Below, piece by piece: positions 23,260 to 62,946 of a stretch of 64,000 nucleotides of DNA; position 1 is the first letter of the stretch, and each line of letters begins with the position of its first letter. The DNA lies in assembly GCF_021190955.1 (NCBI RefSeq), contig NZ_JAIOAO010000007.1, positions 1 through 64,000 on the forward strand, written 5' to 3'. The notes beneath the pieces were generated by a model. It worked only from the letters and a program-made list of their open reading frames with translations, made no database searches and was not told the origin of the DNA. A program made the position numbers and the translations under genes. The stretch comes from Parachryseolinea silvisoli (GTDB lineage: Bacteria; Bacteroidota; Bacteroidia; Cytophagales; Cyclobacteriaceae).

Positions 23260-23410
23260 GACAGCGTGAGTGTGAGCGCGAGAGCGAAGAAAAACAACGT
23301 TCTCTAAGACTAATGCTCAAGTATATAGAAAGGCCTGCTGGTGTGAACTGGTAGGCCTTTTTTTAATAGCGTGAGCGTAGTCGCTCCCGCTCTCACACTC
23401 ACACTGTCTT
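23258..23410. repeat. 30-bp imperfect inverted repeat flanking the smc terminator
   Basis: Arms at 23258-23287 and 23381-23410 match at 27 of 30 positions when one is reverse-complemented. They begin in the smc stop codon and end in the last codons of the convergent methyltransferase gene. The smc terminator hairpin lies between them. Confidence 0.75.
23329..23364 (+). terminator. Rho-independent terminator of smc
   Basis: AAAGGCCT (23329-23336) pairs with AGGCCTTT (23353-23360), extended by two more pairs including one G-U, with a loop of about 12 nt, followed by a T run to 23364. It lies 70 bp after the smc stop. Confidence 0.85.
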
Positions 23411-45700: not shown

Positions 45701-48700
45701 GGCCCTGGATGCCGACCTGGACATATTGATCGGCCTCACGGCTTCATTGTGGCGTGACGAGCCTTCTTATAACGTCTGGCAAAACTTTACAGTCCCCTAC
45801 AAGCATCATGAACGCTCGTTGCGAGCGATGCATCGATACTATTTTGATTTCCTGACAAGTACTCACCAGGATTATGCTTCGGCAGTCTTTACCCGATCGC
45901 TTGCAGATTTTGCGAAAACGCTGGACGCACAACCCGACGCCACATTTGAAAGCCTGGCGGGAATACATATTAAACACGAACCGGTAGCGAATCCTGACGA
46001 CGTTCAGGATACAAAGCATGACAATGCGGAAGCTCTTGTTGAACCCATATCAACAGCTGATGTTGTCCCCCCTTCAGGTATAGAGAAAAATCTTTCGACT
46101 GACTATCCGGGGGCAAACACGAACGAAGCTCCATCGGTCGAGCATGACCAGGACTATGGCAATGGTATCGAAGAAGAGCCGGCACGCTATAACAGTACTA
46201 CCGAAATACGAGGGGCACTGAACGATGGCGTCCACGAATTATTCGCTGCGCTTTATATTGCCACGACTGACCGGGCCACATCGGCAACAATGCTATGGCG
46301 ATCCCTCTATGCCGACCATCGACGGGAACTGGTGCAATACATCCGAACGCACAGGCATCCGGAGCCAATCCTGGATAGTCTGGCGCTGGATGCAGGTGTT
46401 GATATCTTACTCCGTCTTTCAGCCATCTTGTATCAGGACGATACAAGTTATTCCCCCTGGGTAGCTTTTACCAAACGTTTTGGTCATGATGTTGTATTGC
46501 TACGGCAAGGCTACCAGCATTATTTTAGATTTTTACGAGGTATCGGACATGGACCGCAATCACCTCAACCTTTCAGCGTATGGTTAAACAGCCTTGGCGA
46601 CACGCTCAATATCCCGGCAACACGCGCGCAGACTCCTGAGTTACCGCCAGTAGCCTCCCTTAACGCGCCCGAAGGAGGACATAGTGTCGCAGATATCATT
46701 GTTTATTACCTAAAGACCGGACTATTTATACCCGGTGGCGGTGCAGCCGATACAGCCGCATTGACAAAAATAACAACGCGATACTTTTCAGAAGTATCTC
46801 CGAACGATAACCGCATCATGGCCATTGCACATGACAATCCAGAGGCCTACCGTCGTCTAAAACCACTGCTCTCATCCGCGGCGTTGTCATTGTTACAAGA
46901 GTCCGGTTCGACGATTAAAGCTTTGCCACCACACTATACAACAAGTCGGATCAAGACGTTACAACAAATTGAAGCTACTCTTCATTACTGGCTGTACGAA
47001 CAATGGCCCTGGTGGTATATTTCCACCATGCCGCCGATGGACACTGCGACCGCTACCGCTACCCTGGAGAAGCACCTGGAATTGTTCACGGAAAGATTGA
47101 AGGCATCCGGGCACGAGGTAGCCATTATACAAAAGATTGCATCCCGGCTCCCGCAAGCGTTCTTTCTGGAGATGATCGGCATCCGATTCCCGACGGTTGC
47201 CGGCTTTGTTACACGTGTCCTTTTGCTCGTCGAGAAAATGTCATTGGAAGAAGAAAATACCCCCACGTTTCCGCTACATGCAACGTTCGCGGTGGTATAT
47301 GACCATCTGGCTCATCACATCGACCCGTTTTCGGCGCTCCAATTTCTTTCCGTCCTGGCCAGACACAGTGCGACGCTGATCAACCTATCTGAGCCGACGT
47401 GGATCGCCCGCATGGCAGACCTTGCCGCGATGCAAGGGGAGAATTCTCCCTATTGGTCGCTGCATACATTGTTGGTTTCCCTGGACGACGCGTCCAGGGA
47501 AACCTCCCTGATCGCGGATACGCTACAGTCCCCGGCCATGGACGGAACCTCTGCATTACTCGCCCCTCCCACGGTCGAGGCCGACCGTGGGTTCACGGAC
47601 AGCCTATCGCCCACGTTCAAGGAGGCCTTTGTCGCCTATCTCCGCTTGGGGATTATACCGGTCCACACCCAGGAAAGCGGAGGTGGCAACCCGGCATTTA
47701 CACGGCAGCTGCAAGTCGTCGCATTACAAGAACACACCTGGCTCACAACGACGCTGAAAAATCTTTTTAAGAATACCGACACCCTGGATGCGTACCTGTT
47801 GCGTTCGGATCCTTCCATTACGACCAGCATTATCGGCTCCCTGGCGGGTACCCGACAGCAGGAGTTTAGCCAATGGGCGCGCATGATGGAAAATTTCCTC
47901 GATACATTGTCTGAAAAATCCGATGGGGCCATTCCCGGCCCGTTTCAAGCTTCGCTGCTGGCCGCCCGCTCGCTCCTTCTTTTGCTGTTGCAACGGCCGG
48001 CTTTTAACATCACGGCCATTCAGTACGCGCAAGCTGTATTGGACTATAGCACACAGCATTCCCTAACGAAAGGGCCCGACACGCTGCTGAAGAAAATTCA
48101 ACAGTTGAAGGCGTCTCCTCCTATATCTGAACACTTTGTCATTTCCCTGGAGGTGGCACATGCCCAGTTGACCGCGCACGCCCGATCGTTACTCTTACAG
48201 TCGCTGACGAGCCCGAACGTAAAAGTTGAACGAACGACCCCAGCACTTGAGAAGGGTGTCCGCATTCCGGTTGAGGGTGCAGGCATCGTACTCATTGCGC
48301 CTTTCTTCTATATGTATTTCAACCGGCTGGAGATGATAGAGAACAACAGCTTCAAATCCAATGCTCACGCGGTGCGGGCGGTTCACCTGTTACATTACCT
48401 GGTCAGCGGCCACACGGAAGCTCCACGACAGTCGCTGCTGTATAATCTGCTGTGCGGCGCAGATCTTTTCCTCCCGCTTGAAGATACGATTGAACTAACA
48501 GACCATGAAATACAAGTATCCGAAAGCTTGTTGCAAGGCGTGCTGCAAAACTGGACGTCGCTCCAATCCAAATCGATCGATGCGTTGCGGGAAACCTTCT
48601 TGCAGCGTGCTGGTCATATAGAAGAAAATGAAATAGGCTGGAACCTCACGGTAGATCGAAAATCCGTGGATATATTAGTAGACTGGATCCCCTGGTCGTT

Positions 48701-48794
48701 CAGTCTTATTAAACTCTCGTGGATGGAAAAGAGTCTTGCCGTACACTGGCAATCGGACCAATACAGAGACCTCATGCCAATGAATAATAGATGA
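42762..48794 (+). CDS. Contractile injection system tape-measure protein (Afp14-like)
   Basis: 2010 aa. The N-terminus (IEKCTLQIALP, then ISLSKIHLDLGTV) matches the CIS_TMP family, which sets tail length in Afp/PVC-like particles. A motif of the form IxxYxxTGxxP recurs at about residues 155 (VIAQYFRTGTFP), 470 (IVRFYYRYGYFP), 1309 (IIVYYLKTGLFIP) and 1620 (FVAYLRLGIIP). A longer internal duplication pairs about 950-1050 with 1177-1280 (RWRLLYRNYP and LWRSLYADHR, each followed by DSLALDA). The protein is helical, without membrane spans except a hydrophobic stretch near 1845. It is much larger than the Afp14 type I know. Its stop overlaps the ATPase start by 4 bp. Confidence 0.9.
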   Translation: MFSRHRIEKCTLQIALPSENNLEVVKLLAQEKPRILEAILAVLDREVPENLQISLSKIHLDLGTVSRQNFIQTLTDRLIALLSAELERLANDPSIRASRTNRGEPNGAETPFSDIDSSARINPLPDESLPGLHMGLLPYPTAIASQRWKAVSTDTLLAVIAQYFRTGTFPHTFKALLPTDVSILVNYLVDSKARPFADYLSRRIGMTYFQLKLAECLPYDTLLSIARLLPALNTSLPAWLTWIEKVHTEDVSAWKYTSRARRFLLQYLTAASLHDREKIQEEYRLAAVADRDDTVVTYTVQLLPTPFFTIPTPENNKLYTKKRLLYLHDLFQTHRHSPVVRHSIAEGLTLLELRAVVQSLGLAHGSYAYWLVFVRKIKDLYTAEHAVLSDSVKRTMYRRYIDLISTQHKSSVTFARLEQFLLLELQLLPTWPQAVSHPATSTFGAAIPAGETVAITLGSSALGQAKQPDVHAFAIVRFYYRYGYFPTAAQHLQAADLEALILYLLAWNPARLTQYVLTLAGNVTCTARLADTLSANTLKTILSASGRVSDMLAEWNLWEQILESLIAKTTFLSFADKFTLFQYVSAPSGSIRGKIIHEYILSLYTLKKLPIAPHTIMRELLRCNCDDDTQAAALERIVTIWDPFREAYEDALAALREDLANVDTSVTQETRRHPSYAYWIAFQTRVHELLTELGVQARDEILRELQYYYRESLHQDSDELLSPETLPRHLLQRAKPLLAAAMPEGDTMLLRMQFDASVTGATLHWRSVLKGMIRYGIRHVVSNAPALQQLAAIDALWDTALADEAAVFSLFHAADVTPSFWSELSEILSLDRLHRLLSILAPFQYQGLAETGVMKEDRPTTRKMFSLAFTTLHDTRFAISTEKLIDRIFHLASISIPGDALTSLPIPAASGSPDAPTPLAPLLPADNVAARLLTMLAEDISLRRTTSARERWRLLYRNYPSALVLYARMQWSWTAWRDSLALDADLDILIGLTASLWRDEPSYNVWQNFTVPYKHHERSLRAMHRYYFDFLTSTHQDYASAVFTRSLADFAKTLDAQPDATFESLAGIHIKHEPVANPDDVQDTKHDNAEALVEPISTADVVPPSGIEKNLSTDYPGANTNEAPSVEHDQDYGNGIEEEPARYNSTTEIRGALNDGVHELFAALYIATTDRATSATMLWRSLYADHRRELVQYIRTHRHPEPILDSLALDAGVDILLRLSAILYQDDTSYSPWVAFTKRFGHDVVLLRQGYQHYFRFLRGIGHGPQSPQPFSVWLNSLGDTLNIPATRAQTPELPPVASLNAPEGGHSVADIIVYYLKTGLFIPGGGAADTAALTKITTRYFSEVSPNDNRIMAIAHDNPEAYRRLKPLLSSAALSLLQESGSTIKALPPHYTTSRIKTLQQIEATLHYWLYEQWPWWYISTMPPMDTATATATLEKHLELFTERLKASGHEVAIIQKIASRLPQAFFLEMIGIRFPTVAGFVTRVLLLVEKMSLEEENTPTFPLHATFAVVYDHLAHHIDPFSALQFLSVLARHSATLINLSEPTWIARMADLAAMQGENSPYWSLHTLLVSLDDASRETSLIADTLQSPAMDGTSALLAPPTVEADRGFTDSLSPTFKEAFVAYLRLGIIPVHTQESGGGNPAFTRQLQVVALQEHTWLTTTLKNLFKNTDTLDAYLLRSDPSITTSIIGSLAGTRQQEFSQWARMMENFLDTLSEKSDGAIPGPFQASLLAARSLLLLLLQRPAFNITAIQYAQAVLDYSTQHSLTKGPDTLLKKIQQLKASPPISEHFVISLEVAHAQLTAHARSLLLQSLTSPNVKVERTTPALEKGVRIPVEGAGIVLIAPFFYMYFNRLEMIENNSFKSNAHAVRAVHLLHYLVSGHTEAPRQSLLYNLLCGADLFLPLEDTIELTDHEIQVSESLLQGVLQNWTSLQSKSIDALRETFLQRAGHIEENEIGWNLTVDRKSVDILVDWIPWSFSLIKLSWMEKSLAVHWQSDQYRDLMPMNNR

Positions 48795-50161
48795 ACAGCG
48801 CTCCCTTTCAATTCAGCCCCGATGGCGGTATTACCGGCCACAGCCTGGGCACGATACGGGCGGATCTTTCGTGGCTCACCAAAGTCATCGAGTTCCGGTT
48901 GCAACAACACTTCAGTGGTGTTGACGACGACGATTTTATGACCGGCCTGCCGCCACCGGATTTATCCGGTAACGATTCGTTTTATGCCTACATGATCCAG
49001 AAGTATAACTTCAGCACAACGGAAAGGGTAATCCTGCTGACGGCGCTTGCGGTGCATGTGGCGCCGGTATGCTTTGATATCTTCTTTCTGAAGAACGAGA
49101 ACCTCAACCGCGGGTATACCGAGTTTGGGGGCATTATTGGCACGGCGCATAGCGGGTTTATCCCGACGGGAGAAACACTTTCGTTTCTGCTGTGTGGCCG
49201 GAATCTGGAAAAGCGGTTCCAGCTCATGGAGTATTTCTCCGATTATCATCCGTTCTATAGCCAGAATATCCTGCATCTTTCCGACGTAAAAGACGGTGAT
49301 CCGATTTTCAGCGGCGCGGTGACCATCAGCAAAGAATACCTGACCCTGCTTACACAGGGGCGCCCATATTATCCACACTATACCTCTTCGTTTCCTGCCA
49401 AACGTATCACCACTCCCCTAACCTTTGCCGATGCCGTGTATGACGAACACACGGCACATGCGTTGGACGATGTACGCGGTTGGATAAAACACGGTCAGTC
49501 GATTATGGCCGATACACACCTGCGAATGTTCCTGAAACAAGGTTATCGCGTATTGTTTTACGGCCCGCCCGGGACGGGAAAGACGATGACGGCCGCGATG
49601 CTGGGAAAAGAATCCGGCCTGGATGTATACCAGATCGACCTTTCGGCGGTCGTTTCGAAATACATTGGCGAAACAGAAAAGAATCTCGCCAGCTTATTTA
49701 ATATGGCCGAGAACAAACAATGGATACTCTTTTTTGATGAGGCAGATGCGCTTTTTGGCAAACGTACGCAAACACAAAGTAGTAACGACCAGTACGCAAA
49801 CCAGCAAGTCAGTTATCTGTTGCAACGCATTGAAGATTTCAACGGCACGGTGGTCCTGGCCACCAACTTCAAGGACAACATCGACACCGCCTTCTTGCGT
49901 CGGTTTCAATCCATCGTCTTCTTTCCAAAGCCGAAAACAGAACAGCGGCTGGCGTTGTGGCGAAAATATTTTTCTGCCTTTGAGGTCGACGCCGACCTGG
50001 AGTCTATTGCCAATGAATTCGAATTGTCCGGCGGCAGTATGATCAATGTGCTACGGTATTGTTCCATCGTTGCCCAACGCCGTGGCACTACCGTCGTCAC
50101 CGCGGAAGATATCTATAAAGGGATTACTAAAGAGTATCAAAAAGAAGGGATCACCATATAA
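48791..50161 (+). CDS. eCIS AAA+ ATPase (Afp15-like)
   Basis: 456 aa. A variable N-terminal half (1-220) is followed by one AAA+ module with Walker A FYGPPGTGKTMT (about 257), Walker B ILFFDEADALFGKRT (about 312), sensor-1 VLATNFKDN and an arginine-finger segment FLRRFQSIVFFPKP. Afp15/Pvc15-type ATPases are needed for assembly of these particles and are a hallmark of eCIS; unlike ClpV of T6SS they are not sheath-recycling Hsp100 proteins. The ATGA overlap with the tape-measure gene shows coupling. A gap of about 100 bp with a promoter-like site follows. Confidence 0.94.
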   Translation: MNSAPFQFSPDGGITGHSLGTIRADLSWLTKVIEFRLQQHFSGVDDDDFMTGLPPPDLSGNDSFYAYMIQKYNFSTTERVILLTALAVHVAPVCFDIFFLKNENLNRGYTEFGGIIGTAHSGFIPTGETLSFLLCGRNLEKRFQLMEYFSDYHPFYSQNILHLSDVKDGDPIFSGAVTISKEYLTLLTQGRPYYPHYTSSFPAKRITTPLTFADAVYDEHTAHALDDVRGWIKHGQSIMADTHLRMFLKQGYRVLFYGPPGTGKTMTAAMLGKESGLDVYQIDLSAVVSKYIGETEKNLASLFNMAENKQWILFFDEADALFGKRTQTQSSNDQYANQQVSYLLQRIEDFNGTVVLATNFKDNIDTAFLRRFQSIVFFPKPKTEQRLALWRKYFSAFEVDADLESIANEFELSGGSMINVLRYCSIVAQRRGTTVVTAEDIYKGITKEYQKEGITI

Positions 50162-50220: not shown

Positions 50221-50248
50221 TTGACAAAATGGAATTTCTTACTATATT
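50221..50248 (+). promoter_or_regulatory. Possible internal promoter before the membrane block
   Basis: TTGACA (50221-50226), a 16-nt spacer and TATATT (50243-50248), then G. It reads like a sigma-70 box, and TATATTG is also close to the Bacteroidota -7 box. It lies 20 bp before the 50268 ATG and 29 bp before the 50277 ATG, in the only gap over 90 bp between the ATPase and DUF4255 genes. Confidence 0.4.
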
Positions 50249-50276: not shown

Positions 50277-51488
50277 ATGTACAACGCGAATGATCTTTTG
50301 CGGCAAATTTCCGCGTGTAAGCAAGTCATCCAAGTTCACGTCAATACAGCGATCGACACAGCGTTATTAGACGCCTGCATTCAGCAACAGGAAAAGGGAC
50401 TGGCCGTAGTGTTGGTTATGAGTGAACTCAATCGTCCCCATCTGGAAAACAATCCCTTTCTTTTAAACCGGTGCCTTCAATTGCGCAAAAAGGGCGCTGC
50501 GTTATACATAACAGACACCTATCCGGATACTCTATTATATGTATGTATCTCCGACTACAGACAAGTAAGTCATTTTCACGGTTCAGACACCATTCATACT
50601 GCAGAGGCGTGCGACGCTGTACGAAAAGCGGTGTATCGTTTTAATGCGCTCATCCGCAACAGCCTCCCCTTCCATGTTCCGACCGATGGCATCCAGATAA
50701 CCCTGGATGTGTCGGAAGACCTCGTACTGCGAGGTTCCTATGTAAACCTGACGTGGCAAGTGTACGGAGCGGACACGGTAATTATTGAAGGGCTTGGTGA
50801 GGTGGAGCACGCCGGACAGCGGCAGGTATTGCTGACGGAGACCACTCTTTTTAAGGTTGGCGCCTACAACAACAGAGATGTGTCTGTTGCAGCTACAAAC
50901 GTGTGGGTGACACAGAAAACTATTATTGACTACGATATCGGTTTTGTCAGCGCGCAAACCAATGTATTTTACAGTTTGGTAAAAGCGGAGAAAGGCAGCG
51001 ACACTTATGGCACCGTTGCGGGCAACTGCATTTGTCTGCGCTGGCGTGTACTGCATGCGGCCCATGTACACATTCTTCCGTTTAACATAACCGCGCACGA
51101 AGGGGAGCATACCTTCTCCTCATCCACCTCCCTCGATATTTCCATCACGGCACACGTAGACCAACAAGCACTCACACGAAAAATAACCCTGCTCGCGTTT
51201 CCCATCCCGGTATTTCGGGACAAGCTTCTTTCCCTGGCGTCACGCACACCACTACCAACGCTCACCGCGGATGCCGTACAGATGCTAACCCTCACGTTAC
51301 GCGATTCGGAAAAGCGCTATCACAACCTTGTTAAAAAGATACATCGCTACACGTTTCACCAGGCGAGCAAAAAGCCCACGCTGGAGAAGTTGAATGCCTT
51401 TGTTTTTCGCTACCTGAAACGGATGAATGCCGGAAAAGAAGGCGTGCGCAAAACGATCGAATCTATTGAGCACTACTATGAGCGCTAA
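50277..51488 (+). CDS. Ig-like-domain protein of the eCIS membrane block
   Basis: 403 aa from ATG 50277 (406 from 50268). There is no leader or membrane span. Residues 1-130 form a mixed alpha/beta domain, with strands LAVVLVMSEL and GAALYITDTYPDTLLYVCIS, that I cannot assign. Residues about 140-220 read as an Ig-like domain of the form VxLxWxVxGAxxVxIxGxGxV, then TTxFxVxAxN (VNLTWQVYGADTVIIEGLGE). A second beta domain follows, then a basic helical C-terminus (about 345-403). The stop overlaps the DUF4407 gene by 11 bp. A cytosolic adaptor between the particle and the membrane protein next door is one reading; there is no direct evidence. Confidence 0.75.
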   Translation: MYNANDLLRQISACKQVIQVHVNTAIDTALLDACIQQQEKGLAVVLVMSELNRPHLENNPFLLNRCLQLRKKGAALYITDTYPDTLLYVCISDYRQVSHFHGSDTIHTAEACDAVRKAVYRFNALIRNSLPFHVPTDGIQITLDVSEDLVLRGSYVNLTWQVYGADTVIIEGLGEVEHAGQRQVLLTETTLFKVGAYNNRDVSVAATNVWVTQKTIIDYDIGFVSAQTNVFYSLVKAEKGSDTYGTVAGNCICLRWRVLHAAHVHILPFNITAHEGEHTFSSSTSLDISITAHVDQQALTRKITLLAFPIPVFRDKLLSLASRTPLPTLTADAVQMLTLTLRDSEKRYHNLVKKIHRYTFHQASKKPTLEKLNAFVFRYLKRMNAGKEGVRKTIESIEHYYER

Positions 51489-52653
51489 ACCTGTGGATGC
51501 CACACCGCCCCCACGCGCGCTCGGCCGCGTGATGACGTTCTTTATTTTCTGCTCGGCAGCGAATAAAGAGATCTTACAGCGCTGCCCGCTGTCAGAGTAT
51601 CACAAGTATGCCAGCATCGGCGCCACCATCTTCTTTACCGGCATCCTCGCCGGCCTGTCCGGCGGCTATGCGCTTTATACAGTGTTCGATAGCGTGGCCG
51701 TGGCGGTCACGCTTGGGATTTTTTGGGGCATATTGATCTTCAACCTCGATCGGTTTATTGTGAGCACGATAAAGAAGGGTTCCACACGGTATAGCCAGGT
51801 ATTACAGATCATCCCCCGCACGCTGCTGGCGGTATTCCTGGCGATCGTCATTTCGAAACCTCTGGAGCTTCGCATTTTTAAAGAGGAAATTGACGAAGCC
51901 CTGCACCTCGCCTGCCTTGCGCGGCTGGAGACGGTGAACAACGACTACAACGCCAAAATCGAACACTGGCGCCAGCAGCAGCAACAGATGAAAGAAAAGG
52001 CGGAGCAACGCTATGCCGTCCGTGAAAAATACTACGAAGAATATCGTTGCGAATGCGACGGTTCATGCGGAACGGGCGCGCGCGGCATCGGGTCGGAATG
52101 TTTACGGAAAGAAAAGAAATATAACAACGCCAACAAGGAGTACCAAGAGGTCATCACCGAGCAACAAGCTATGACCGCACAGGCCGCGCAGGCGATCGGC
52201 GCTTTAAACCAGGAGCGTAAAACGCACGAGGCGTCGCTCCGGAACACCTTCGCCACCGGGTTGCTGGCCCAGCTGGAAGCGCTGCACCAATTACCGCAAG
52301 GACCTTCCCTGGCCATTATATTCCTGCTCATCTTTATAGAGGTATCGCCCATCCTGGCCAAACTGCTTTCTCCCGCGGGGCCATACGACCATGTGCTGAA
52401 AACCCTGGAGTACGACTACGAAATAGAAGAGCTTTCGTCCATCAACATCCGCAACCAAAAGCTCAACAATCAGCTGACGTTGCTGGCTAGCGTGGAACAA
52501 CAGCAGGTGGAGCAGCAGCTTAAGCACAACCGGGAAACCATCAACCTGATCGAAAAAGCGCATCAGGAGTTGGTCCGTGAGCAACTGTCGCTATGGGTGG
52601 AGCAGGAAAAGATCAAGCTCAGAGAAAACGCATTTAGTCAACAAGAAGCCTAA
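51478..52653 (+). CDS. DUF4407 membrane protein with long coiled coil
   Basis: 391 aa from the ATG at 51478; a longer frame from 51427 overlaps the upstream gene in full. Predicted spans lie near 45-68, 71-89, 109-126 and 275-297. The long stretch between spans three and four (about 135-265) is a charged, Gln-rich coiled coil with a CECDGSCGTGARGIGSEC Cys cluster near 190. The C-terminal 90 residues are again helical and charged. This is the DUF4407 family, whose function is unknown. It is an integral inner-membrane protein inside an otherwise particle-building locus, which is unusual for an extracellular system. It overlaps the Ig-like gene and is followed after 16 bp by a secreted protein gene. 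Confidence 0.88.
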   Translation: MSAKPVDATPPPRALGRVMTFFIFCSAANKEILQRCPLSEYHKYASIGATIFFTGILAGLSGGYALYTVFDSVAVAVTLGIFWGILIFNLDRFIVSTIKKGSTRYSQVLQIIPRTLLAVFLAIVISKPLELRIFKEEIDEALHLACLARLETVNNDYNAKIEHWRQQQQQMKEKAEQRYAVREKYYEEYRCECDGSCGTGARGIGSECLRKEKKYNNANKEYQEVITEQQAMTAQAAQAIGALNQERKTHEASLRNTFATGLLAQLEALHQLPQGPSLAIIFLLIFIEVSPILAKLLSPAGPYDHVLKTLEYDYEIEELSSINIRNQKLNNQLTLLASVEQQQVEQQLKHNRETINLIEKAHQELVREQLSLWVEQEKIKLRENAFSQQEA

Positions 52654-52669
52654 CCCACGGGCAGCACGC

Positions 52670-53443
52670 ATGAAAGCGATACTCCTTCTTCTGACAATCT
52701 TTGTGACGGCGCCGCCAGGCCAGTGCCTGCAAGGCGACTCCCTGGTATGTGCGAAAGAATTTAGTAATGTGCTCACGGCGAACTACAAAACGTTTCTCAA
52801 GCGCGATGTTACCGGCACATTTGCCGTAAAAGATGGTGACAGCATTCAATATGTATTGTTTCAGGAGAATTTATACGGAGCTACTTTTTTCCTATACGAC
52901 CCGGCCGGAAAAGAAATCGTAAAAACGCACGCCAAAGAAAAAGTACTTTCCGGCAGATTAAAAGGCCCTGTGCCGGGCAATTATTACTACAAGATCCGGT
53001 CCGGGCGCCCGTTTCCAAATTCGTTTATCCTGATGTTGAACGTACGCACATGCCTGCCCTACACGCCCGAGCCAACCCACGACAGCACAAATTCCGCCGT
53101 CGAAATGGACACCGTTACCACGGTAAAAATTGACTCTACCCTTTATCTGGCCAGTACACTTAATTTAAAAAATAAACAAAGTATCCGCATCGAGGTCGAT
53201 TCTTTGCACGGATTTCTGCAATACGAAATTCAGTCCACGGGCGGCCCCATAAAATATACGTTTTCCAATGGGGCAGCAAAGACTGTAAAAAATGGGATGG
53301 GAATATACCACACCGGAACACTACCTTTTAAACACTCCTTTTACACTTTGTGGTTGGAGAACGACGACCCGGTGGCCGGTAAACATGTGCGCGTGACGAT
53401 TGTCCAGTATGAACGAAAACGCAAACCATCCCTCGTAAAATGA
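52670..53443 (+). CDS. Secreted two-domain beta protein of the eCIS block
   Basis: 257 aa from the ATG at 52670 with a signal peptide (MKAILLLLTIFVTAPPGQC); a longer frame from 52577 is rejected. The mature protein appears to hold two similar beta-sandwich units. Residues about 35-125 contain GTFAVKDGDSIQYVLF and PGNYYYKIRSGRP, like a pre-peptidase C-terminal domain. Residues about 150-250 contain KNKQSIRIEVDSLHG and GIYHTGTLPFKHSFYTLWLE. I know no named family for the whole. It overlaps the GH18-like gene by 4 bp (ATGA), so the two are coupled and probably act together outside the inner membrane. Confidence 0.72.
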   Translation: MKAILLLLTIFVTAPPGQCLQGDSLVCAKEFSNVLTANYKTFLKRDVTGTFAVKDGDSIQYVLFQENLYGATFFLYDPAGKEIVKTHAKEKVLSGRLKGPVPGNYYYKIRSGRPFPNSFILMLNVRTCLPYTPEPTHDSTNSAVEMDTVTTVKIDSTLYLASTLNLKNKQSIRIEVDSLHGFLQYEIQSTGGPIKYTFSNGAAKTVKNGMGIYHTGTLPFKHSFYTLWLENDDPVAGKHVRVTIVQYERKRKPSLVK

Positions 53444-55089
53444 AAGAGCTGCTACATGATATGATCCTGCGTGGCGGTCTGCTTGTATTGCTTTACTGCA
53501 GCCTGCACGTTGCCGCCATCGCCCAGCAATCGCATATGATAGATCCGGCGAATGCTACTGACACGGTGGCCTGGAAAAAAGAAAGGGAGTTCAGGCCCGG
53601 CAGCACATTAAATAAGTACAGCAAGGTCTTTAAGACACTTCATGGCAAGAGTCGCAAAATCTACTTCCGCAAAACAGAGGGACTGCAAGAGATTGCGTAC
53701 AACGACAAAAGCCAAACGTATTATGGAAAAAATAGCACCCGCGCGCGGCCGGCGGATAGCACGGAAGTGATGGGCTGGCACCTGCACTGGATGGAAGCGG
53801 AGTGTCCTTACTATCCGTACAAACTTTTTTCTACCATCGGCTTTTTTGCGTATGACATCGACGCTCACAGCGGCGCGTGTACCGATGTCGACGCCATCCG
53901 GCAATGGCTAACGTCACCCGTACACGACTCGGCCCGTGTTCACCACACGAAGATGTTGCTGACATTAACCAGCTACAGTACGGAACGCAATAATACATTT
54001 TTGAACAATCCCCCTGCGTGGATGCTCTTGAGTGACAGTGTCCGGTCGCTGATCCGAATAAAAAAAGCCCACGGAATTGATCTCGACTTTAACGGCTTGC
54101 AACCGGCTATGAAATCCCGCTTCACCGAATTTATCCGATTCATTCGCAATAAACTGGGCGACAGTACTATCATCACCTTGCAAATACCATATAACGCCGC
54201 CCTGGGAGCCTATGATCTGAATGAGCTGAAACCGTTGATCAATACCTTTACGGTGCAGGGCTTTGATTATGAAAATCCCACGTGTGGTGGTGCCCCCCTG
54301 CCGATGGCGCCACTGCAATCTGGCGGCGAATGCCCCAGCCTCGAAAAAACAGTGAATGCGCTTCTACAGACCTTGCCGCCGGAAGACATCATTATCGGTT
54401 TCCCACTCTACGGCACTCGTTGGCAACGCAAGGCCTCTGGCTGGACTTCATTGGACAATATGCCCTACGAAAATATACGTGCGCAGTACAATGTGAACCG
54501 CGAAGAATATATCGAAACATACAGTGGCAGCAGTATGGTGCGCGACGGAAATGCCATACCCTATGAGGTGGTATGGTATGAAGGACACGAAAGCTTGAAT
54601 CGCAAGTTTTCCTGGATAAAAGAAAAAGGCCTTAAAGGAGCCGGACTTTGGGGCCTTGGTTACGATGGCAGCCACCCGGAAATATGGCATGCGGTCGAGT
54701 CTCATTTTGCGGCATCCCCCTGGCAAAAAATAGAGCCCATCGGCTATGACAACGGGCGATCGTATTCCCTAGTAGCGACCCTTTACCGCTACCGGAAATT
54801 TATCGGCGTATCGATCTTCATTATCATTGGATTCTTTCTGTTGGGCCTGCTCCTCTCGCTGCTGGACTGGCGTGTGCGCGGCGTATTTTTTCACAGTGGC
54901 GCTTACCGTGGTCTTTTTGCCTGTGGATTGATCGTGGTCGCGGTACTGGCCGTGTACCTCCTCTCGGACGAGACAAGCTCCTCCGGCAACAGCGGCTTGA
55001 GCATGTTTGCGTATGGTATACTATCCGGAGCGGTACTGGTCTATATCACCAGCACGGCATACCTGCGGTACAAAAACAAACTTCCGTAA
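53440..55089 (+). CDS. GH18 chitinase-fold protein lacking the catalytic Glu, membrane-anchored
   Basis: 549 aa: a signal peptide (about 1-29), a short domain, then a GH18 TIM-barrel (about 105-425) with MGWHLHWMEAE, KMLLTLTSYS, TVQGFDYENP, IIGFPLYGTRW and GLKGAGLWGLGYDG. In the GH18 active-site motif DGxDxDxE this protein has HGIDLDFN: His211 replaces the first Asp and Asn218 replaces the proton-donor Glu, while Asp214 and Asp216 remain. It is therefore probably a binding protein, not a chitinase. The C-terminus has three membrane spans (about 448-470, 490-506, 522-540). Co-located with DUF4407 and secreted partners, it may bind glycan while tied to the membrane. A sequence error at codon 218 cannot be excluded from one genome. 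Confidence 0.85.
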   Translation: MKELLHDMILRGGLLVLLYCSLHVAAIAQQSHMIDPANATDTVAWKKEREFRPGSTLNKYSKVFKTLHGKSRKIYFRKTEGLQEIAYNDKSQTYYGKNSTRARPADSTEVMGWHLHWMEAECPYYPYKLFSTIGFFAYDIDAHSGACTDVDAIRQWLTSPVHDSARVHHTKMLLTLTSYSTERNNTFLNNPPAWMLLSDSVRSLIRIKKAHGIDLDFNGLQPAMKSRFTEFIRFIRNKLGDSTIITLQIPYNAALGAYDLNELKPLINTFTVQGFDYENPTCGGAPLPMAPLQSGGECPSLEKTVNALLQTLPPEDIIIGFPLYGTRWQRKASGWTSLDNMPYENIRAQYNVNREEYIETYSGSSMVRDGNAIPYEVVWYEGHESLNRKFSWIKEKGLKGAGLWGLGYDGSHPEIWHAVESHFAASPWQKIEPIGYDNGRSYSLVATLYRYRKFIGVSIFIIIGFFLLGLLLSLLDWRVRGVFFHSGAYRGLFACGLIVVAVLAVYLLSDETSSSGNSGLSMFAYGILSGAVLVYITSTAYLRYKNKLP

Positions 55090-55092
55090 CGC

Positions 55093-55326
55093 ATGAAAGA
55101 CATTCTGGCAAAAGAGTTTTTATACTTATTTTTCGCGATTATCACCGCGATACCGGTGGCCTTTCTCTTCTTATATATGCTTCAACTGGATCCAGGCCAT
55201 ACGAGCGTCGCTGGCGACGAGCAGGTATTGGAAGTCGATATGATGCTCATTGGTGGAATATTGGGCTTTTTGGGAGTTTACCTGATCCGCCTGACGGTCT
55301 GGGCAGTGAAACAATTCGTTCAATAA
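55093..55326 (+). CDS. Small two-span membrane protein
   Basis: 77 aa with two hydrophobic segments (about 8-31 and 50-72) around a short acidic loop. It starts 3 bp after the GH18-like stop and 20 bp before the DUF4255 gene. No family is recognised. It closes the five-gene membrane block. Confidence 0.65.
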   Translation: MKDILAKEFLYLFFAIITAIPVAFLFLYMLQLDPGHTSVAGDEQVLEVDMMLIGGILGFLGVYLIRLTVWAVKQFVQ

Positions 55327-55346: not shown

Positions 55347-55919
55347 ATGATACAACATGTGTTACCGGTCATTATCGACGAGCTTAACGAATACCTAAAA
55401 TCACAGTTCAATGCTGTCGAAGATAAGGCTATACTTTCCGGCATTGTAGAGCAAGATGGCAGCCTGGCCCTCGAAAGCGGAAACAAGGTCGTGGCAACAT
55501 TGATTTTTATCGACAAAGAAACAACCTATAAAAGCGGACCGGGAACAACCTCTTCGGGTTTCGAGATCCTTCAATACTCTCCGCCGTTGAACATAAACCT
55601 CACCATTCTGTTTTCAGCGCTTTTTAGCAGAAATCACTATGTCGAATCCCTACGCTACATATCGGGTGTCATCTATTTCTTTCAATACAAGTCCCTGTTC
55701 ACGGGGCAAAATACGCCAAAGCTCGCCAAAGGCGTGGACAAGATTTATTTCGACCTGCTCTCTGTGTCACCCAGCGATATGATGAACTACTATTCGATGC
55801 TCGGCATAAAATACGTTCCCTCGGTCGTATACAAAGTACGAATGTTAACTTTTTCGCAAGACAACGTGGTGGCCGATTTACCAGCAATCCGTGGAATGGA
55901 TACAGGAACACAACACTAA
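55347..55919 (+). CDS. DUF4255 tail terminator (Afp16/Pvc16-like)
   Basis: 190 aa, soluble. It has the DUF4255/Pvc16 pattern: MIQHVLPVIIDELNEYL, SGFEILQYSPPLNINLTILF, then YVESLRYISGVIYFFQ and a C-terminal MMNYYSMLGIKYVPSVVYKV segment. In Afp and PVC this protein caps the distal end of the tube and sheath and stops their growth. The family is specific to contractile tails of this kind. It follows the membrane block by 20 bp and precedes a gap of about 130 bp. Confidence 0.9.
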   Translation: MIQHVLPVIIDELNEYLKSQFNAVEDKAILSGIVEQDGSLALESGNKVVATLIFIDKETTYKSGPGTTSSGFEILQYSPPLNINLTILFSALFSRNHYVESLRYISGVIYFFQYKSLFTGQNTPKLAKGVDKIYFDLLSVSPSDMMNYYSMLGIKYVPSVVYKVRMLTFSQDNVVADLPAIRGMDTGTQH

Positions 55920-56048: not shown

Positions 56049-57083
56049 ATGTTACGCTTTAAGCAGTTGTGGCAAGTCGATTTTATTCACCAATATTATA
56101 CTGTCCGGTCGTATCAGCCGTTCAGGGTTATCCCTACCCCTGCCACCGCACGGCAAATGCAAGCCTATGGACTTCTTATGAAAGATTCCGCTCGTGGTTT
56201 TTTCATCGCATCGAAAGCACAGGACGCTGTCACAGACTTGCAATACCTTCTGTACAAACCTGTTAAGCTGGTGTTTACGATAACGTGTGATGACCCGCTC
56301 TTATTAAATTACTCCAGTCTTTCCATTGAAGATGTCGCGCAAAGCTTTCTACTCAGCAATCAGTACGAGGCAACCGACGGGACCACGTACCTTCATATGG
56401 GCGTGCAGCTTTCCGAGGCGGACCTCATTATACCGGTCACCGGCTACAACGACCTGGATGCCTACTTCAACCCTGAAGACGCTATATCGTGTTACCTTAT
56501 AAATAAGGTAAACTCCAGTACTCCGTTCTTTACGGGCACCTATGAAGCGTTTAAAGCTGCGCAGACATTTGATACACTACTGGACATGCCTCATTTTACT
56601 ATCCGCCATTCCGGCACGTCTGATGTATTGAATTTTTATGCCTGGGCGAACCGGTTAAGGAACGTTTTCGCGGTCCTGGAAATGACCCTTACGCCGCCGA
56701 TGGCGACGGCACCAAACCCCACTCGTTATGTAGTTACCATTGGAGCCCGGGCTATCTCCTGGCGGTATAATATTATAGAGAAGCCCCAACGGTCATTCAG
56801 TGATTTTATTCTGTACGCCGGCAAACAGCCGTTGTCGCTAAAACCGATCACGACACGTACACTGGCCGACGGCTCGACTGCGGTTATTCTGGAACCGGTC
56901 GATCCCATTCTGCTTTCAGAGACATATGACGCACCGTTTGAAATAGAATTTAACCAAACAGACAGTAAAGCCGGGAAGCTAAGCTCACGCCGCAGGTTAG
57001 GGCTTCCGATTCCCGATATCGAACGAATCAAGATAAGCGCGCACCATGCCAGCGCCTATTCTGACATGTATATACACATCTAA
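56049..57083 (+). CDS. Unassigned eCIS-locus protein upstream of the sheath
   Basis: 344 aa, soluble, no leader. The sequence is mixed alpha/beta with beta-rich segments (FTITCDDPLLLNYSSLSIED, RYVVTIGARAISWRYNIIEK) and ends in an exposed basic tail (SKAGKLSSRRRLGLPIPDIE). I recognise no family. It lies between the terminator and the single sheath gene (18-bp gap), so a cap adaptor, sheath partner or locus-specific structural protein is plausible. AlgoCIS-type particles are known to have extra cap-adaptor parts, which makes this worth comparing. Function is unproven. Confidence 0.8.
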   Translation: MLRFKQLWQVDFIHQYYTVRSYQPFRVIPTPATARQMQAYGLLMKDSARGFFIASKAQDAVTDLQYLLYKPVKLVFTITCDDPLLLNYSSLSIEDVAQSFLLSNQYEATDGTTYLHMGVQLSEADLIIPVTGYNDLDAYFNPEDAISCYLINKVNSSTPFFTGTYEAFKAAQTFDTLLDMPHFTIRHSGTSDVLNFYAWANRLRNVFAVLEMTLTPPMATAPNPTRYVVTIGARAISWRYNIIEKPQRSFSDFILYAGKQPLSLKPITTRTLADGSTAVILEPVDPILLSETYDAPFEIEFNQTDSKAGKLSSRRRLGLPIPDIERIKISAHHASAYSDMYIHI

Positions 57084-57101: not shown

Positions 57102-58592
57102 ATGCCACAAGTTTATGCCACCCCAGGGGTGTACATTGAAGAAAAGAGCGCATTTGCCAGCTCGGCTGTGCCCGTCGCGACAGCGGTACCCGCGTTTATC
57201 GGGTACACGGAGAAAGCGATCCGAAATAACAAATCCATCATCAACGTTCCAACCCGTCTCACGTCGCTGAACGAGTATCATGAGATCTTTGGCGGCGCGC
57301 CAAAAATTCAGTTCGATTTGCTGGACGGTGAGAATGGAGAACCTTTTAAGGTTGAGGTGAAGCGTGAAACTAACTTTTATCTCTACAACACGCTGCGCTT
57401 GTTCTTCTCCAATGGCGGGTCCACCTGCTACATCATTGCCGTGGGAACCTATGACTACACCAAAGGCGTAGAGACGGCCACGCTTAATCCGGCGGAAAAT
57501 GACAAGGGTCTGAAAACGTTGTTAAAGGAATTTGAACCTACTATGGTGGTGATTCCCGATGCCGTACTGCTCGGCGAAGCAGACTGTTTCAGCCTGCAAC
57601 AGGCGATGGTCATGCATTGCGGCTTTGACATGCGCAATCGGGTTGCTTTGCTGGATGTGTACAATGGCTATTTATCCAGAACCATGGCCGATGACGATGT
57701 GATCACCAAGTTTCGCGAAGGCATCGGCATCAATCACCTGCAATGGGCGGCGGCGTATTATCCATGGGTGGAAAGCACCGTGGTACCGCTCACCGAAATA
57801 GACCTGGCGAACTTTGCAAACCCCGACGTCTTAAAGACCAAGCTGACCGAGTCGCTGAGCAAGGACAAGGCCGATGAAAAAAAGACTGCCGCCATCGCAC
57901 TGGAGATCGAAAAGATCGGCGCGGCCGATACCGATGTCGTGGCACTTCATCAAACACTGTTCACAGCCGTGCCGCTATATAAAGCTATCCTCACGGAAGT
58001 CAGGCAAAAAATAAATATACTTCCTCCCAGTGGTGCCATGGCCGGCGTACTGACGATGGTCGACAACGCCGTAGGGGTAGCCAAATCGCCCGCCAACGTA
58101 TCGATGGGATCGGTGGTGAAACCCACTGTCAATATCACCAACGCCATTCAGGAAGACCTGAACCTGCCGCTCAACGGCAAGGCGGTGAACGCCATTCGTA
58201 GTTTTCCCGGTAAAGGTGTGCTGGTATGGGGCGCGCGTACCCTGGACGGTAACAGCCAGGACTGGCGATACCTCAGCGTGCGCCGCACGGTCATTATGAT
58301 CGAACAGTCGCTCAAGATTGCCGCGGAAGCGTATGTATTCGAGCCCAACGTATCGAACACCTGGGTGACTGTAAAAGGTATGATGAGCAACTTCCTGACC
58401 GATCAATGGAAGCGCGGCTCGCTGGCCGGCGCCATACCCGAGGATGCCTTCAGCGTCGATATCGGCCTGGGCGTAACGATGACTCCTACGGATGTTCTGG
58501 ATGGTATCATGCGAATCACGGTGCGGCTTGCCGTCGTAAGACCAGCCGAATTTATCGTGATCACGTTCCAGCAACAAATGCAAAAATCATAA
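57102..58592 (+). CDS. Contractile sheath protein (Afp2-4-like)
   Basis: 496 aa, soluble. Its start (PQVYATPGVYIEEKSAFAS, then VPAFIGYTE) and end (KAVNAIRSFPGKGVLVWGAR, then WRYLSVRRTVIMIEQSLK) match the phage-tail-sheath family. These conserved N- and C-terminal handshake regions link neighbouring subunits. It is the only sheath gene visible, whereas Afp and PVC carry three; a single sheath type agrees with simpler systems such as AlgoCIS. The sheath contracts to drive the tube through the target membrane. Confidence 0.96.
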   Translation: MPQVYATPGVYIEEKSAFASSAVPVATAVPAFIGYTEKAIRNNKSIINVPTRLTSLNEYHEIFGGAPKIQFDLLDGENGEPFKVEVKRETNFYLYNTLRLFFSNGGSTCYIIAVGTYDYTKGVETATLNPAENDKGLKTLLKEFEPTMVVIPDAVLLGEADCFSLQQAMVMHCGFDMRNRVALLDVYNGYLSRTMADDDVITKFREGIGINHLQWAAAYYPWVESTVVPLTEIDLANFANPDVLKTKLTESLSKDKADEKKTAAIALEIEKIGAADTDVVALHQTLFTAVPLYKAILTEVRQKINILPPSGAMAGVLTMVDNAVGVAKSPANVSMGSVVKPTVNITNAIQEDLNLPLNGKAVNAIRSFPGKGVLVWGARTLDGNSQDWRYLSVRRTVIMIEQSLKIAAEAYVFEPNVSNTWVTVKGMMSNFLTDQWKRGSLAGAIPEDAFSVDIGLGVTMTPTDVLDGIMRITVRLAVVRPAEFIVITFQQQMQKS

Positions 58593-58622: not shown

Positions 58623-59075
58623 ATGGCAGGCGAAAAACAGGACAATGTATGGCCCTTACCGAAATTCTATTTCAGTGTGGAAGTAGAGGGTGGTATGACG
58701 GCTTCCTTTCAAGAAGTATCGGGCCTCGATGCTGAAGTTGATGTGTTCGAATACCGGCACGGTGACAGTAAAGACTTTACCAAGATTAAAATGCCGGGAC
58801 TAAAAAAATATAGCGACGTCACGCTGAAGAAGGGCCATTTTACCGGCGACATTCAGTTCTTTGAATGGTTCAGTAAAAACCAGTTAAACACCATCGAGCG
58901 CAAGGGTGTAACGATCAAGTTACTCAACGAAGGCGGAAACACAGAAATTGTCTGGACGCTCACCAACGCGTTCCCGAAATCGGTTAAATCGACTGATCTC
59001 AACTCGGGCAGTAGTGACGCGGCCATCGAGCAATTGGTGTTGGCGCATGAGGGCCTGGTGATCGCGAAAGGCTGA
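58623..59075 (+). CDS. Inner tube protein (Afp1/5-like)
   Basis: 150 aa of the gp19/Hcp-like tube family: LPKFYFSVEVEGGMTASFQE, VSGLDAEVDVFEYRHG, then LKKYSDVTLKKGHFTGD and the C-terminal WTLTNAFPKSV strand. Stacked hexamers of this protein form the tube inside the sheath. It sits 30 bp after the sheath gene and 9 bp before a second tube gene. Confidence 0.95.
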   Translation: MAGEKQDNVWPLPKFYFSVEVEGGMTASFQEVSGLDAEVDVFEYRHGDSKDFTKIKMPGLKKYSDVTLKKGHFTGDIQFFEWFSKNQLNTIERKGVTIKLLNEGGNTEIVWTLTNAFPKSVKSTDLNSGSSDAAIEQLVLAHEGLVIAKG

Positions 59076-59084: not shown

Positions 59085-59561
59085 ATGGCAGTAACCCAAA
59101 CGACCGGAGAACCCTACCCGCTGGTAGGGTTCTACTTTAGTGTTTCATTCAGCGGCATCAACGATACAAACGATGTAAAATTCAAAGAAATATCGGGTAT
59201 TAGTATGTCGCTGGAAGTGCAAAATATAGCACAGGGTGGTGACAGTGGTTTCGTTGTGACGCTGCCGCAGAAAACAACTTTCAGCGACCTGGAATTAAAA
59301 AGAGGCTTGTTATCGGCATCGTCTGCCGTAACCGCGTGGTGCTACAGCTGGCTCCTGAACGACTATTCTCAACCAATAGAGAAGAAAACGGTATCGCTGA
59401 AGTTGCTCAATAAAGATGGCGCAGCCGTTATGACCTGGCAGTTTAACGAAGCCTACCCCGTGAAACTTGATATCAGTAGCTTCAGCTCCACCGCCTCGGG
59501 CGACGCCGCCCTGGTGGTTGAAAGCATCAAGCTGAAGTATAGCACCATCAAAATTATATAA
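59085..59561 (+). CDS. Second tube protein (tube initiator-like)
   Basis: 158 aa, paralog of the preceding tube protein: YPLVGFYFSVSFSGIN, FKEISGISMSLEVQNIAQGG, TTFSDLELKRGLLS and WQFNEAYPVKL. In Afp and PVC a second, less abundant tube protein forms the layer joining spike hub and main tube. Similar length and order support the same role here. Confidence 0.92.
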   Translation: MAVTQTTGEPYPLVGFYFSVSFSGINDTNDVKFKEISGISMSLEVQNIAQGGDSGFVVTLPQKTTFSDLELKRGLLSASSAVTAWCYSWLLNDYSQPIEKKTVSLKLLNKDGAAVMTWQFNEAYPVKLDISSFSSTASGDAALVVESIKLKYSTIKII

Positions 59562-59736: not shown

Positions 59737-60414
59737 ATGGCCACTAGTGGGAAGCGGGAAAAAATGGTGATTGAGGGCTACGAAGCGCCGGACTTTACAG
59801 CCAAGGTGGCTGATGATTATATTTTTCAGATCAATCCTGAAAAGTATGATCGCACGCAGGAGTCCTCTGTGAAAGAAGACACCCGGCGATTGGCCAATGG
59901 AGATAGTATCCCCTCGAATAAATCCGTCGACCAGGAGTACCTGACACTGGACTTCTATATAGACTCTACCGGAGCCGTCGGCGGCTGCGACGATGTGGAA
60001 GCTAATATCAAAGCCTTGAAAAAACTGTGTGTGGATGTGAATGGGAAAATACACCGGGCGAACTACCTCAAGGTACGCTGGGGAACCGATTTTACATTCC
60101 CCTGTGAGATGACTGAGCTGAAAACGGATTTTGTCTTATTCAAGCCCGATGGAACGCCGGTACGGGCCAAGGTGATGGCGAAGTTGCGGCAATTTATCGA
60201 CGCCGACGCTAAGGCAAAACAAAATAACCTCAGCTCGCCAGACCTATCTCATATCAAAACGGTTGTGGATGGCGACACGCTGCCCATGCTTTGCCACAAC
60301 GTATACGGAGATCCTAAATATTATATACAGGTTGCCGCTTATAACCATCTGATCAATTTCAACGTCCTTACCCCCGGGCAAAGGATAATTTTTCCCCGTT
60401 TAACCGATGATTAA
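59737..60414 (+). CDS. LysM hub adaptor (Afp7-like)
   Basis: 225 aa. The N-terminal part has the phage gp53-like fold signature FQINPEKYDRTQESSVKED and TLDFYIDSTGAVGG. The C-terminus is a LysM motif (VVDGDTLPMLCHNVYGDPKY, then LTPGQRIIFPRL). In Afp and PVC this protein joins the tube initiator to the spike hub within the baseplate. Its stop overlaps the VgrG-like gene by 8 bp. Confidence 0.93.
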   Translation: MATSGKREKMVIEGYEAPDFTAKVADDYIFQINPEKYDRTQESSVKEDTRRLANGDSIPSNKSVDQEYLTLDFYIDSTGAVGGCDDVEANIKALKKLCVDVNGKIHRANYLKVRWGTDFTFPCEMTELKTDFVLFKPDGTPVRAKVMAKLRQFIDADAKAKQNNLSSPDLSHIKTVVDGDTLPMLCHNVYGDPKYYIQVAAYNHLINFNVLTPGQRIIFPRLTDD

Positions 60415-62529: not shown

Positions 62530-62946
62530 ATGCAAGACAATACATTCCTGGGCAGAGGCTGGTCGTTCCCACCGCGGTTCGACTTTGTACGCAACGCGGT
62601 AGTGATGGTAGAAGAAGACGAAGACATCGCCGAGAGCCTGCGACTGATCCTTTCTACCATGCAAGGCGAACGGATCATGGACCCGAAATTCGGGAGCACG
62701 CTGGCTACGTTCGTCTTCGACAGCATCGACAGCCTGTTTATCAACCGCATCAAAGACAGCATCCGTACGGCGATCCTTCACCACGAGCCCCGCGTCACCC
62801 TGGATGAGATCACGGTAAACACAACGCAGGCCAGCGAGGGCGTAGTGTATGCAACGTTATTCTACACCATTCGAAAAATAAATGTACGGAGTAATATGGT
62901 ATACCCATTTTACTTTAAAGAAGGAACAAACATACAGCACCCTTAA
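62530..62946 (+). CDS. gp25-like baseplate protein (Afp9-like)
   Basis: 138 aa of the GPW/gp25 family: FLGRGWSFPPRF, VVMVEEDEDIAESLRLILST, QGERIMDPKFGSTLATFVFD and HEPRVTLDEITVN. It forms part of the baseplate wedge that starts sheath assembly. It begins 19 bp after the PAAR gene and ends 12 bp before the Afp11-like gene. Confidence 0.94.
   Translation: MQDNTFLGRGWSFPPRFDFVRNAVVMVEEDEDIAESLRLILSTMQGERIMDPKFGSTLATFVFDSIDSLFINRIKDSIRTAILHHEPRVTLDEITVNTTQASEGVVYATLFYTIRKINVRSNMVYPFYFKEGTNIQHP

Follow-up and report, generated by a model that had tools for sequence, protein, structure and literature searches.

Whether a contractile injection system (CIS) is released from the producing cell or stays inside it decides its mode of action and its targets. 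The question applies to many loci of Bacteroidota and is raised here by a CIS locus of Parachryseolinea silvisoli (assembly GCF_021190955.1) that belongs to the lineage of extracellular CIS (eCIS). The window analyzed is the first 64 kb of the 292-kb contig NZ_JAIOAO010000007.1, from a genome of 7.95 Mb, and the CIS locus spans positions 42111 to about 73400 of the contig, past the window end. Between the genes for an Afp15-like ATPase and a DUF4255 cap protein lie five genes, designated g1 to g5. A first-pass annotation, made from the sequence alone, had proposed that their products anchor, position or release the particle at the envelope of the producer. Our results indicate that the five genes almost certainly constitute a CIS-dedicated membrane module and that docking at the inner membrane is its probable role. 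The genes are as follows, with protein lengths in amino acids (aa):

50277..51488, + strand: g1, a soluble protein and the first gene of the block, 403 aa (406 aa from an alternative in-frame ATG at 50268)
51478..52653, + strand: g2, a DUF4407 membrane protein (PF14362, E = 1e-76, 258.6 bits against a gathering threshold of 31.3)
52670..53443, + strand: g3, a secreted or periplasmic protein (signal peptide read by eye)
53440..55089, + strand: g4, a GH18 protein (PF00704, E = 7e-22, 79 bits against a gathering threshold of 29.6)
55093..55326, + strand: g5, a two-span membrane protein of 77 aa (hydropathy)

The coordinates of the five open reading frames (ORFs) and their four junctions in the first-pass annotation were exact: g1 and g2 overlap by 11 bases, g2 and g3 are 16 bases apart, g3 and g4 overlap by four bases and g4 and g5 are three bases apart. 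Matches to PF00004 and PF14065 on either side place the block between the ATPase and cap genes, as had been described. The assignments of g2 as a DUF4407 membrane protein, g4 as a degenerate GH18 protein with three spans and g5 as a two-span protein were likewise borne out by the matches listed above, by hydropathy and, for g4, by its GIDLDFN motif. The Ig-domain call for g1 was not confirmed, its only Pfam matches up to an E of 5 being to two unrelated families at an E of about 0.2, and neither was the call of g3 as a beta protein.

At the hydropathy cut of 1.6 used for all span counts, no membrane span was found in g1, nor did g1 match Pfam, NCBIfam, PADLOC or PHROGs at the cut-offs used. 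It may comprise an N-terminal domain, a middle part that is perhaps Ig-like and a helical-looking tail. g2 is predicted to have four spans, an outside loop of 151 residues that carries a four-cysteine motif (CECDGSCGTG...EC) and an inside C-terminal tail of 95 residues. g3 is fast-evolving; the protein of the window had no Pfam match, and alignments of its family gave the consensus DTIP...LDTxxYLGAxRD. g4 starts with a signal-like hydrophobic stretch, followed by the GH18 domain and three C-terminal spans. Its best solved relatives are YdhD and YaaH, two spore-cortex GH18 glycosylases (3cz8, 4s3k), and its residues 110–339 also match the family phrog_3432 ("minor tail protein") at an E of 4e-8. 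Both ends of g5 are predicted inside. Hydropathy and charge agree on a single topology, in which the inner membrane would have the g2 coil with its cysteine motif and the GH18 domain on its outer side and the g2 and g4 tails and both g5 ends on its inner side; the charge bias near the C-terminal tail of g2 is weak. A promoter-like match at 50221–50248, before g1, was left unused: it is of the E. coli type, and 11 matches were found against a mean of 7.4 (standard deviation 3.0) in shuffled sequences.

The recurrence of the block was followed in a survey of 148 genomes of the window's family (Cyclobacteriaceae in GTDB) and in a scan of named contigs. Genomes, contigs and loci are given by G, C and L numbers, respectively. 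In the family survey, g1 was matched in eight genomes, and a ninth (G087:C4) was added by its gene map. The eight best g2 matches (49–100% identity) were from the same eight genomes, and the ninth (37%) was that of G087:C4, where it lies beside the tape measure gene. A sequence search with g3 found two of the 148 genomes and one weak match. The profiles used were built from the first loci mapped, whose matches are therefore by construction. All nine genomes carry g1-g2-g3-g4-g5 in this order. In eight of them, the cap gene comes directly after the block; in the ninth, G087:C4, the block lies behind the ATPase gene and g5 was detected by profile only. The tape measure and ATPase genes of G039, G045 and G098 are at the opposite end of the locus.

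The named-contig scan used the g2 profile on one genome per species for 84,980 species and was confined to the best 80 of 579 relatives, with flanks of 10 kb at most; more distant blocks may rank lower. In 27 of these 80 loci, g1 was directly upstream of g2 and g4 was in the same locus. Four of the 27 (L094, L098, L099 and L102) repeated loci of the family survey and were dropped, which gave 32 non-redundant block loci (nine from the family survey and 23 from named contigs). The order g1-g2-x-g4 on one strand was found in 31 of the 32, and chance adjacency was therefore ruled out. In L103, g3, g4, g5 and the cap gene are on the other strand. The place of g3 was matched by the g3 profile in 30 of the 32 loci; in L117, it is occupied by a 412-aa ORF with no model match. 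g5 adjoins g4 in 23 loci (22 by profile and one by size and spans) as well as in L103 on the other strand, and four loci end before its place. The position of the block varies: many loci have it beside the cap gene, others behind the ATPase gene. The contigs are labeled Cytophagales, Flavobacteriales, Saprospiraceae, Lewinella, Chitinophagales and others and are mostly from metagenome bins.

The block is closely tied to CIS genes. The tape measure family CIS_TMP was present in all nine block genomes of the family survey, compared with 62 of the 148 overall, and core CIS genes were in the fetched stretch of 29 of the 32 block loci. Among the best 80 of 579 relatives, core CIS genes flanked 24 of 27 block loci but none of the 53 other DUF4407 loci. 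This is the co-occurrence that the first-pass annotation had proposed to score, obtained here for g1 to g4, with g5 sought inside the fetched loci only; the outcome named there as refuting, genes lying for the most part apart from contractile systems, did not arise. The three block loci without core CIS genes in their flanks were L101, L104 and L108. The genomes of L101 and L104 have long tape measures on other contigs; L108 is on an 8.7-kb contig, and its genome gave no tape-measure match. One of the other DUF4407 loci, L120, had a weak Cis13-type match that was not counted as core. Within the same 80 loci, the four-cysteine motif of g2 was found in 27/27 block loci and 0/53 others. Moreover, in a tree of 51 DUF4407 proteins, which included 19 of the 54 other proteins and gave long-branch warnings, one branch with a support of 96 split the 32 block proteins from the 19 others. 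DUF4407 proteins as such occur in 90 of the 148 family genomes, mostly outside CIS loci, and the family was rejected as a general CIS marker; therefore, only the block-type subfamily with the cysteine motif passes the test of CIS linkage.

Similar to the g2 subfamily, g1 is confined in its distribution. Among 277 genomes sampled from the phylum, a full-length g1 was found only in the genome of the window; the matches in 22 further genomes were partial and covered about 45 to 200 positions of the model. Pairwise identities of g1 to g4 also tracked those of the sheath, with r of 0.79–0.94 (0.95 for the cap) over 120 pairs from 16 loci, a comparison among genes of the CIS locus only, with no outside gene as control. 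Taken together, we have little doubt that the five genes form a membrane module dedicated to CIS.

The GH18 protein with C-terminal spans has a wider distribution than the block. It is also found in CIS operons without g1–g3 (hereafter GH18-only), at their head, tail or middle. The family survey gave 79 tape-measure places, of which six were set aside (five under 400 aa and the broken G098:C1); those of 740 aa or more were called long. A GH18 gene shared the contig with 23 of 37 long places and with none of 36 short places, two of which (G002, 422 aa) may have been truncated at contig ends. Seven of the 14 long places that lack GH18 on their contig are in fragmented assemblies with a GH18 match on another contig (G038 twice, G101, G098:C13, G027 twice and G021, the match of G021 being unmapped). 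G057, G058, G077 and G137 possess both CIS types and have GH18 at the long-tape one only. Outside the family, GH18 is beside a long tape measure in G237, G233, G210 and G301. Large proteins of about ten spans were seen near the GH18-only CIS loci of G046, G009:C1, G012, G107 and G057 (L071, L037, L042, L040 and L084, respectively), in some of them beside an nSTAND gene.

Among 10 mapped short loci, the median tape measure was 500 aa long; the medians were 983 aa for nine long loci without GH18, 1157 aa for 20 GH18-only loci and 2050 aa for 12 block loci. Given that a tape-measure residue corresponds to about 1.5 angstrom of particle length, an upper bound known from phage tails, these medians would mean particles of roughly 75, 150, 170 and 300 nm at most. 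The tape measures of G009:C4 (L035) and G027:C189 are about 3840 aa long and would correspond to particles of more than half a micrometer if wholly used as a ruler.

On a sheath tree of 36 rows, GH18 presence and block presence each required one change, and the block was nested within GH18. The GH18 protein thus probably joined the CIS before the other members of the block did. The first-pass description of the block as inserted in an eCIS locus is therefore somewhat inexact, given that the block varies in position and its GH18 member probably came earlier. A recent insertion of the block was rejected, as the tree has one change and the block is present across several labeled taxa.

Active GH18 enzymes carry the motif DxxDxDxE, which includes the catalytic D and E. 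In g4 of the window, the motif is GIDLDFN, in which D is kept and the catalytic E is replaced by N; the same motif is found in G143. The catalytic pair was intact in all eight controls, in 12 of 22 GH18-only copies and in four of the 30 block copies (of 32) that were readable, and the difference between block and GH18-only copies had a Fisher p of 0.002, with related sequences counted apart. The controls were high-scoring matches from genomes of the phylum sample without a tape-measure match, and none of them had a C-terminal span. D was replaced by N, E or Y, and E by N, S, R, T, A, F, I, Q or Y; losses of such differing kinds suggest that catalysis decayed repeatedly. The GH18 domain and its spans appear to be retained while the predicted catalysis goes. 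In the 50 complete CIS copies, from which four truncated ones (L093, L101, L108 and L114) were left out, 44 had three C-terminal spans and six had two. The final residue was proline in 39 of the 50 and in none of the eight controls, which hints at a conserved contact in the cytoplasm. An ordinary chitinase was rejected as an identity for this protein, as its best solved kin are wall glycosylases and the controls are without a C-terminal span.

The loci also differ in their Cis13-like proteins. Wherever it was found among the mapped GH18 loci (26 of them), this protein was compact, with a length of 244–302 aa. Among the loci with a long tape measure and no GH18, G033 and G054 have several Cis13-like proteins of up to about 1000 aa, G146 has one of 408 aa, and none was seen in G053, G317 and G347. 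The Cis13-like genes of G033:C7 (L063, L088) and G054:C75 (L064, L087) lie in a row and possibly belong to multi-fiber particles. No Cis13-like match, GH18 or g1–g5 was found in any of the 10 mapped short-tape loci. Eight of these have a gene for 881–1421 aa between Cis12 and the tape measure; of the other two, G069 has a Cis12-like protein of 2437 aa and G067 has neither. Judged by position, the large genes of the short-tape loci may encode fibers. An eCIS in the strict sense is set free by lysis and bears long tail fibers that bind receptors. In the window's locus, no long fiber gene was recognized, although no search aimed at fibers was made in either case.

We consider it probable, though well short of assured, that the products of the five genes make up a docking complex of the inner membrane, dedicated to the CIS, that anchors a type VI secretion system (T6SS)-like, eCIS-derived machine, because the predicted topology, the lack of an obvious long fiber, the long tape measures and published precedents all fit. 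In such a complex, g2 and g5 would form a membrane ring. The C-terminal spans of g4 would fix it in this membrane, so that its mostly non-catalytic, sugar-wall-binding domain would project into the periplasm, together with the g2 coil and g3. On the cytoplasmic side, the baseplate or cap would be contacted by g1 and by the g2 and g4 tails that face inside. Such a machine would not be freed by lysis; it would remain in the cell, its baseplate at the inner membrane, and discharge outward in response to contact or to an envelope signal, in the manner of a T6SS. Complex formation, wall binding, the membrane position of the particle and contact-dependent firing are steps that we infer. Of the envelope roles named in the first-pass annotation, anchoring and positioning thus fit, and release is disfavored because 26 of the 30 readable block copies, that of the window included, have lost one or both catalytic residues.

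Release would require a quite different use of the five proteins, as a lysis cassette in which g5 is a holin-like pore, g4 a membrane-held wall cutter and g2 and g3 spanin-like helpers that free the particles. The small size and two spans of g5, the kinship of the GH18 domain with spore-cortex wall glycosylases and the catalytic pairs kept in 12/22 GH18-only and 4/30 block copies speak for such a cassette. Besides the broken active sites, however, the C-terminal spans of g4 are kept instead, and the 10 mapped short-tape loci, presumably of the released type, have no such genes, so that we regard a release cassette as unlikely. A trigger is somewhat easier to entertain, although we doubt it: a membrane sensor of wall or envelope damage, with the GH18 domain as probe, the cysteine-bearing g2 coil as transmitter and g1 as messenger, would fire free cytoplasmic particles, and an nSTAND protein may join. 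Its precedent is CisA, for which such a role has been proposed and which was not found in the purified particle (PMC12237407). An nSTAND protein is encoded in the window's locus, matches of this d765 type are in the flanks of 12 of the 27 block loci of the named-contig scan, and the g2 cysteine motif is in all 27. CisA, however, is one bitopic protein, whereas the block has five genes and several membrane parts. A standing attachment is also what the long tape measure and the absence of an obvious long fiber point to.

Chance settlement of an envelope-maintenance operon in an ancestral CIS locus would agree with the occurrence of DUF4407 mostly elsewhere in the family and with that of GH18 genes in 109 of the 277 genomes of the phylum sample. 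Such a passenger is nevertheless very improbable, in view of the absence of full-length g1 outside block loci, both in the family survey and in the phylum sample, the absence of cysteine-motif g2 outside the block among the best 80 of 579 relatives and the order kept in 31/32 loci despite operon rearrangement around the block. It is hardly credible, finally, that the GH18 protein or g3 is an effector or tail part and the membrane proteins its immunity. A "chitinase?" effector is given for an eCIS of Dickeya (PMC8213781), and g4 matches a phage minor tail family, but its signal-like start, the several spans and the conserved gene order are ill-suited to tube cargo and the active site is mostly broken in block copies.

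Several results weigh against docking by this complex. The Cis13-like protein of the window (66730–67494) is without a predicted span, different from Cis13 of the Anabaena tCIS, and a compact Cis13-like protein is also found in two long-tape loci without GH18 (G023 and G065:C5). Neither an outer-membrane component nor a lipoprotein was recognized in the block of the window, and g5 was not detected in four of the 28 loci that could be judged (L104, L105, L106 and L117). Seven long-tape places in six family genomes (G023, G033, G053, G054, G065 twice and G146) lack GH18, G054 having both CIS types; outside these, no GH18 was seen near the long tape measures of G317, G347 and G321 within the 20 kb examined. 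A long tape measure therefore does not require GH18. The block branch of the sheath tree, which left out short-tape loci and came with a long-branch warning, had a support of only 74. Moreover, four block and 12 GH18-only copies retain the catalytic pair, so that an enzymatic role is possible there, and the match to phrog_3432 keeps a particle-borne GH18 protein conceivable.

A wider scenario may be put forward tentatively, as one that could well be wrong. A Bacteroidota eCIS lineage may independently have become a cell-bound, T6SS-like weapon by building its own membrane complex stepwise, beginning with a membrane-held wall glycosidase, to which a DUF4407 ring and periplasmic and cytoplasmic parts were added. 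What was once the glycosidase would now be an inactive collar that grips the wall, and the tape measure would have become about fourfold longer. The block is a further candidate case of eCIS-to-T6SS conversion and suggests a way in which a wall enzyme may be turned to structural use. It also provides a gene-level marker that is tied to one CIS lineage and is in none of the 10 mapped short-tape loci.

The block is surrounded by the following genes of the CIS locus:

42111..42710, + strand: eCIS_core (DUF4157) protein (PF13699, E = 8e-12)
42762..48794, + strand: tape measure protein of 2010 aa (CIS_TMP; PF19268, E = 2e-74)
48791..50161, + strand: AAA ATPase, Afp15-like (PF00004, E = 1e-31)
55347..55919, + strand: cap protein (Pvc16_N/DUF4255; PF14065, E = 1e-24)
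56049..57083, + strand: conserved protein after the cap, with no Pfam match and in the same place in many mapped loci; perhaps a cap adaptor
57102..58592, + strand: sheath (PF17482/PF04984)
58623..59075 and 59085..59561, + strand: two tube proteins (PF06841, E = 8e-42 and 6e-31)
59737..62200, + strand: CIS tube protein with a LysM-like end, and spike/hub (VgrG-like) protein (PF19266, PF04717, PF05954)
62530..62946, + strand: gp25-like baseplate protein (PF04965)
62959..66669, running past the window end: Cis11-like protein, 1236 aa
66730..67494, past the window: Cis13-like protein, 254 aa
67497..70223, past the window: Cis12-like protein, 908 aa
70220..72517 of the contig (L010:10220-12517), past the window and continuing the run of genes: nSTAND1 NTPase, predicted to have one span

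The locus thus has the cap, tape measure, ATPase, eCIS_core, tube, sheath, LysM, spike, gp25, Cis11 and Cis12 proteins of an eCIS-lineage CIS. The best solved relatives of its sheath are 9r9h, AlgoCIS 7adz and tCIS 7b5h. The PDB entries 9r9h and 9rce, the closest solved relatives of the sheath and the Cis11-like protein, come from a group of entries in which "SalCis12" is named; no paper on SalCIS or a Salinibacter contractile injection system was found in the literature search. PADLOC gave weak ATP-site matches only, to the nSTAND protein, which is a possible firing switch. The 291-aa protein that follows it at 72527–73402 of the contig (L010:12527-13402) had no Pfam match. Its start resembles what we take to be the leader motif of DUF4157-linked eCIS cargo, and it is a candidate cargo. 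Elsewhere in the window, a strong AT skew at 20001–24000 is explained by an SMC-like gene (19723–23259, named by eye).

The Pfam and NCBIfam libraries contain models of TssJLM and TssNQOPR, the membrane components of T6SS i–iii. No match to them was found among g1–g5 in scans with these two libraries, which involved no direct comparison with TssN. Similar to TssNQOPR of T6SSiii, the block is a five-gene, CIS-dedicated membrane set in Bacteroidota, but TssN has five spans and TssR is a lipoprotein (PMC10781749). Moreover, the machine of the window, unlike T6SSiii, has a tape measure, a DUF4255 cap and an AAA ATPase. Streptomyces CisA is also a membrane protein encoded with an eCIS-lineage system and is a proposed membrane recruiter; different from the block, it is a single bitopic protein with a solute-binding-like outer domain and without GH18 or DUF4407 (PMC12237407). 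No single-span protein of this adaptor type is among g1–g5, apart from signal-like starts.

The Anabaena tCIS (PMC8894136; 7b5h) is an eCIS-lineage machine fixed to a membrane, and its Cis11 and Cis12 have matching counterparts here; 40 N-terminal residues of the Cis13-like protein also match its Cis13 at an E of 8e-5. The tCIS is, however, anchored by a span of Cis13 and an extension of Cis12 (PMC8894136), whereas the Cis13-like protein of the window lacks the span and the Cis12-like protein has 908 aa, compared with 1335 in tCIS. T6SSiv of Amoebophilus and BIS of gut Bacteroidota are eCIS-lineage relatives with a reported or proposed membrane-linked mode, but they are tied to homologs of Aasi_0556 (PMC8894135, PMC12210884). 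A clade Ib sheath is a further mark of this group. YdhD and YaaH are the closest solved GH18 relatives of g4 by sequence; g4 of the window differs from them in the missing catalytic Glu and the three C-terminal spans. In the literature searched, nothing linked DUF4407 or a membrane GH18 protein to CIS. A fiber catalogue, from which loci without fiber genes were excluded, notes that such loci might act intracellularly or by unknown means (PMC12923769).

The archaeal CIS of Halogeometricum acts as a T6SS with a co-conserved membrane protein, Hbor_38620, and its membrane-bound mode has been seen by tomography (PMC11566945). Proteins of the Hbor_38620 type are in 29 of 41 loci, upstream of the core genes, and are absent from CIS-negative genomes (PMC11566945). 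The archaeal machine has one six-span protein and no Gram-negative envelope, whereas the set described here has five genes, with predicted periplasmic and glycosidase-like parts. Similar to the archaeal T6SS, however, the system of P. silvisoli is an eCIS-lineage machine in which a subset of loci carries dedicated membrane proteins.

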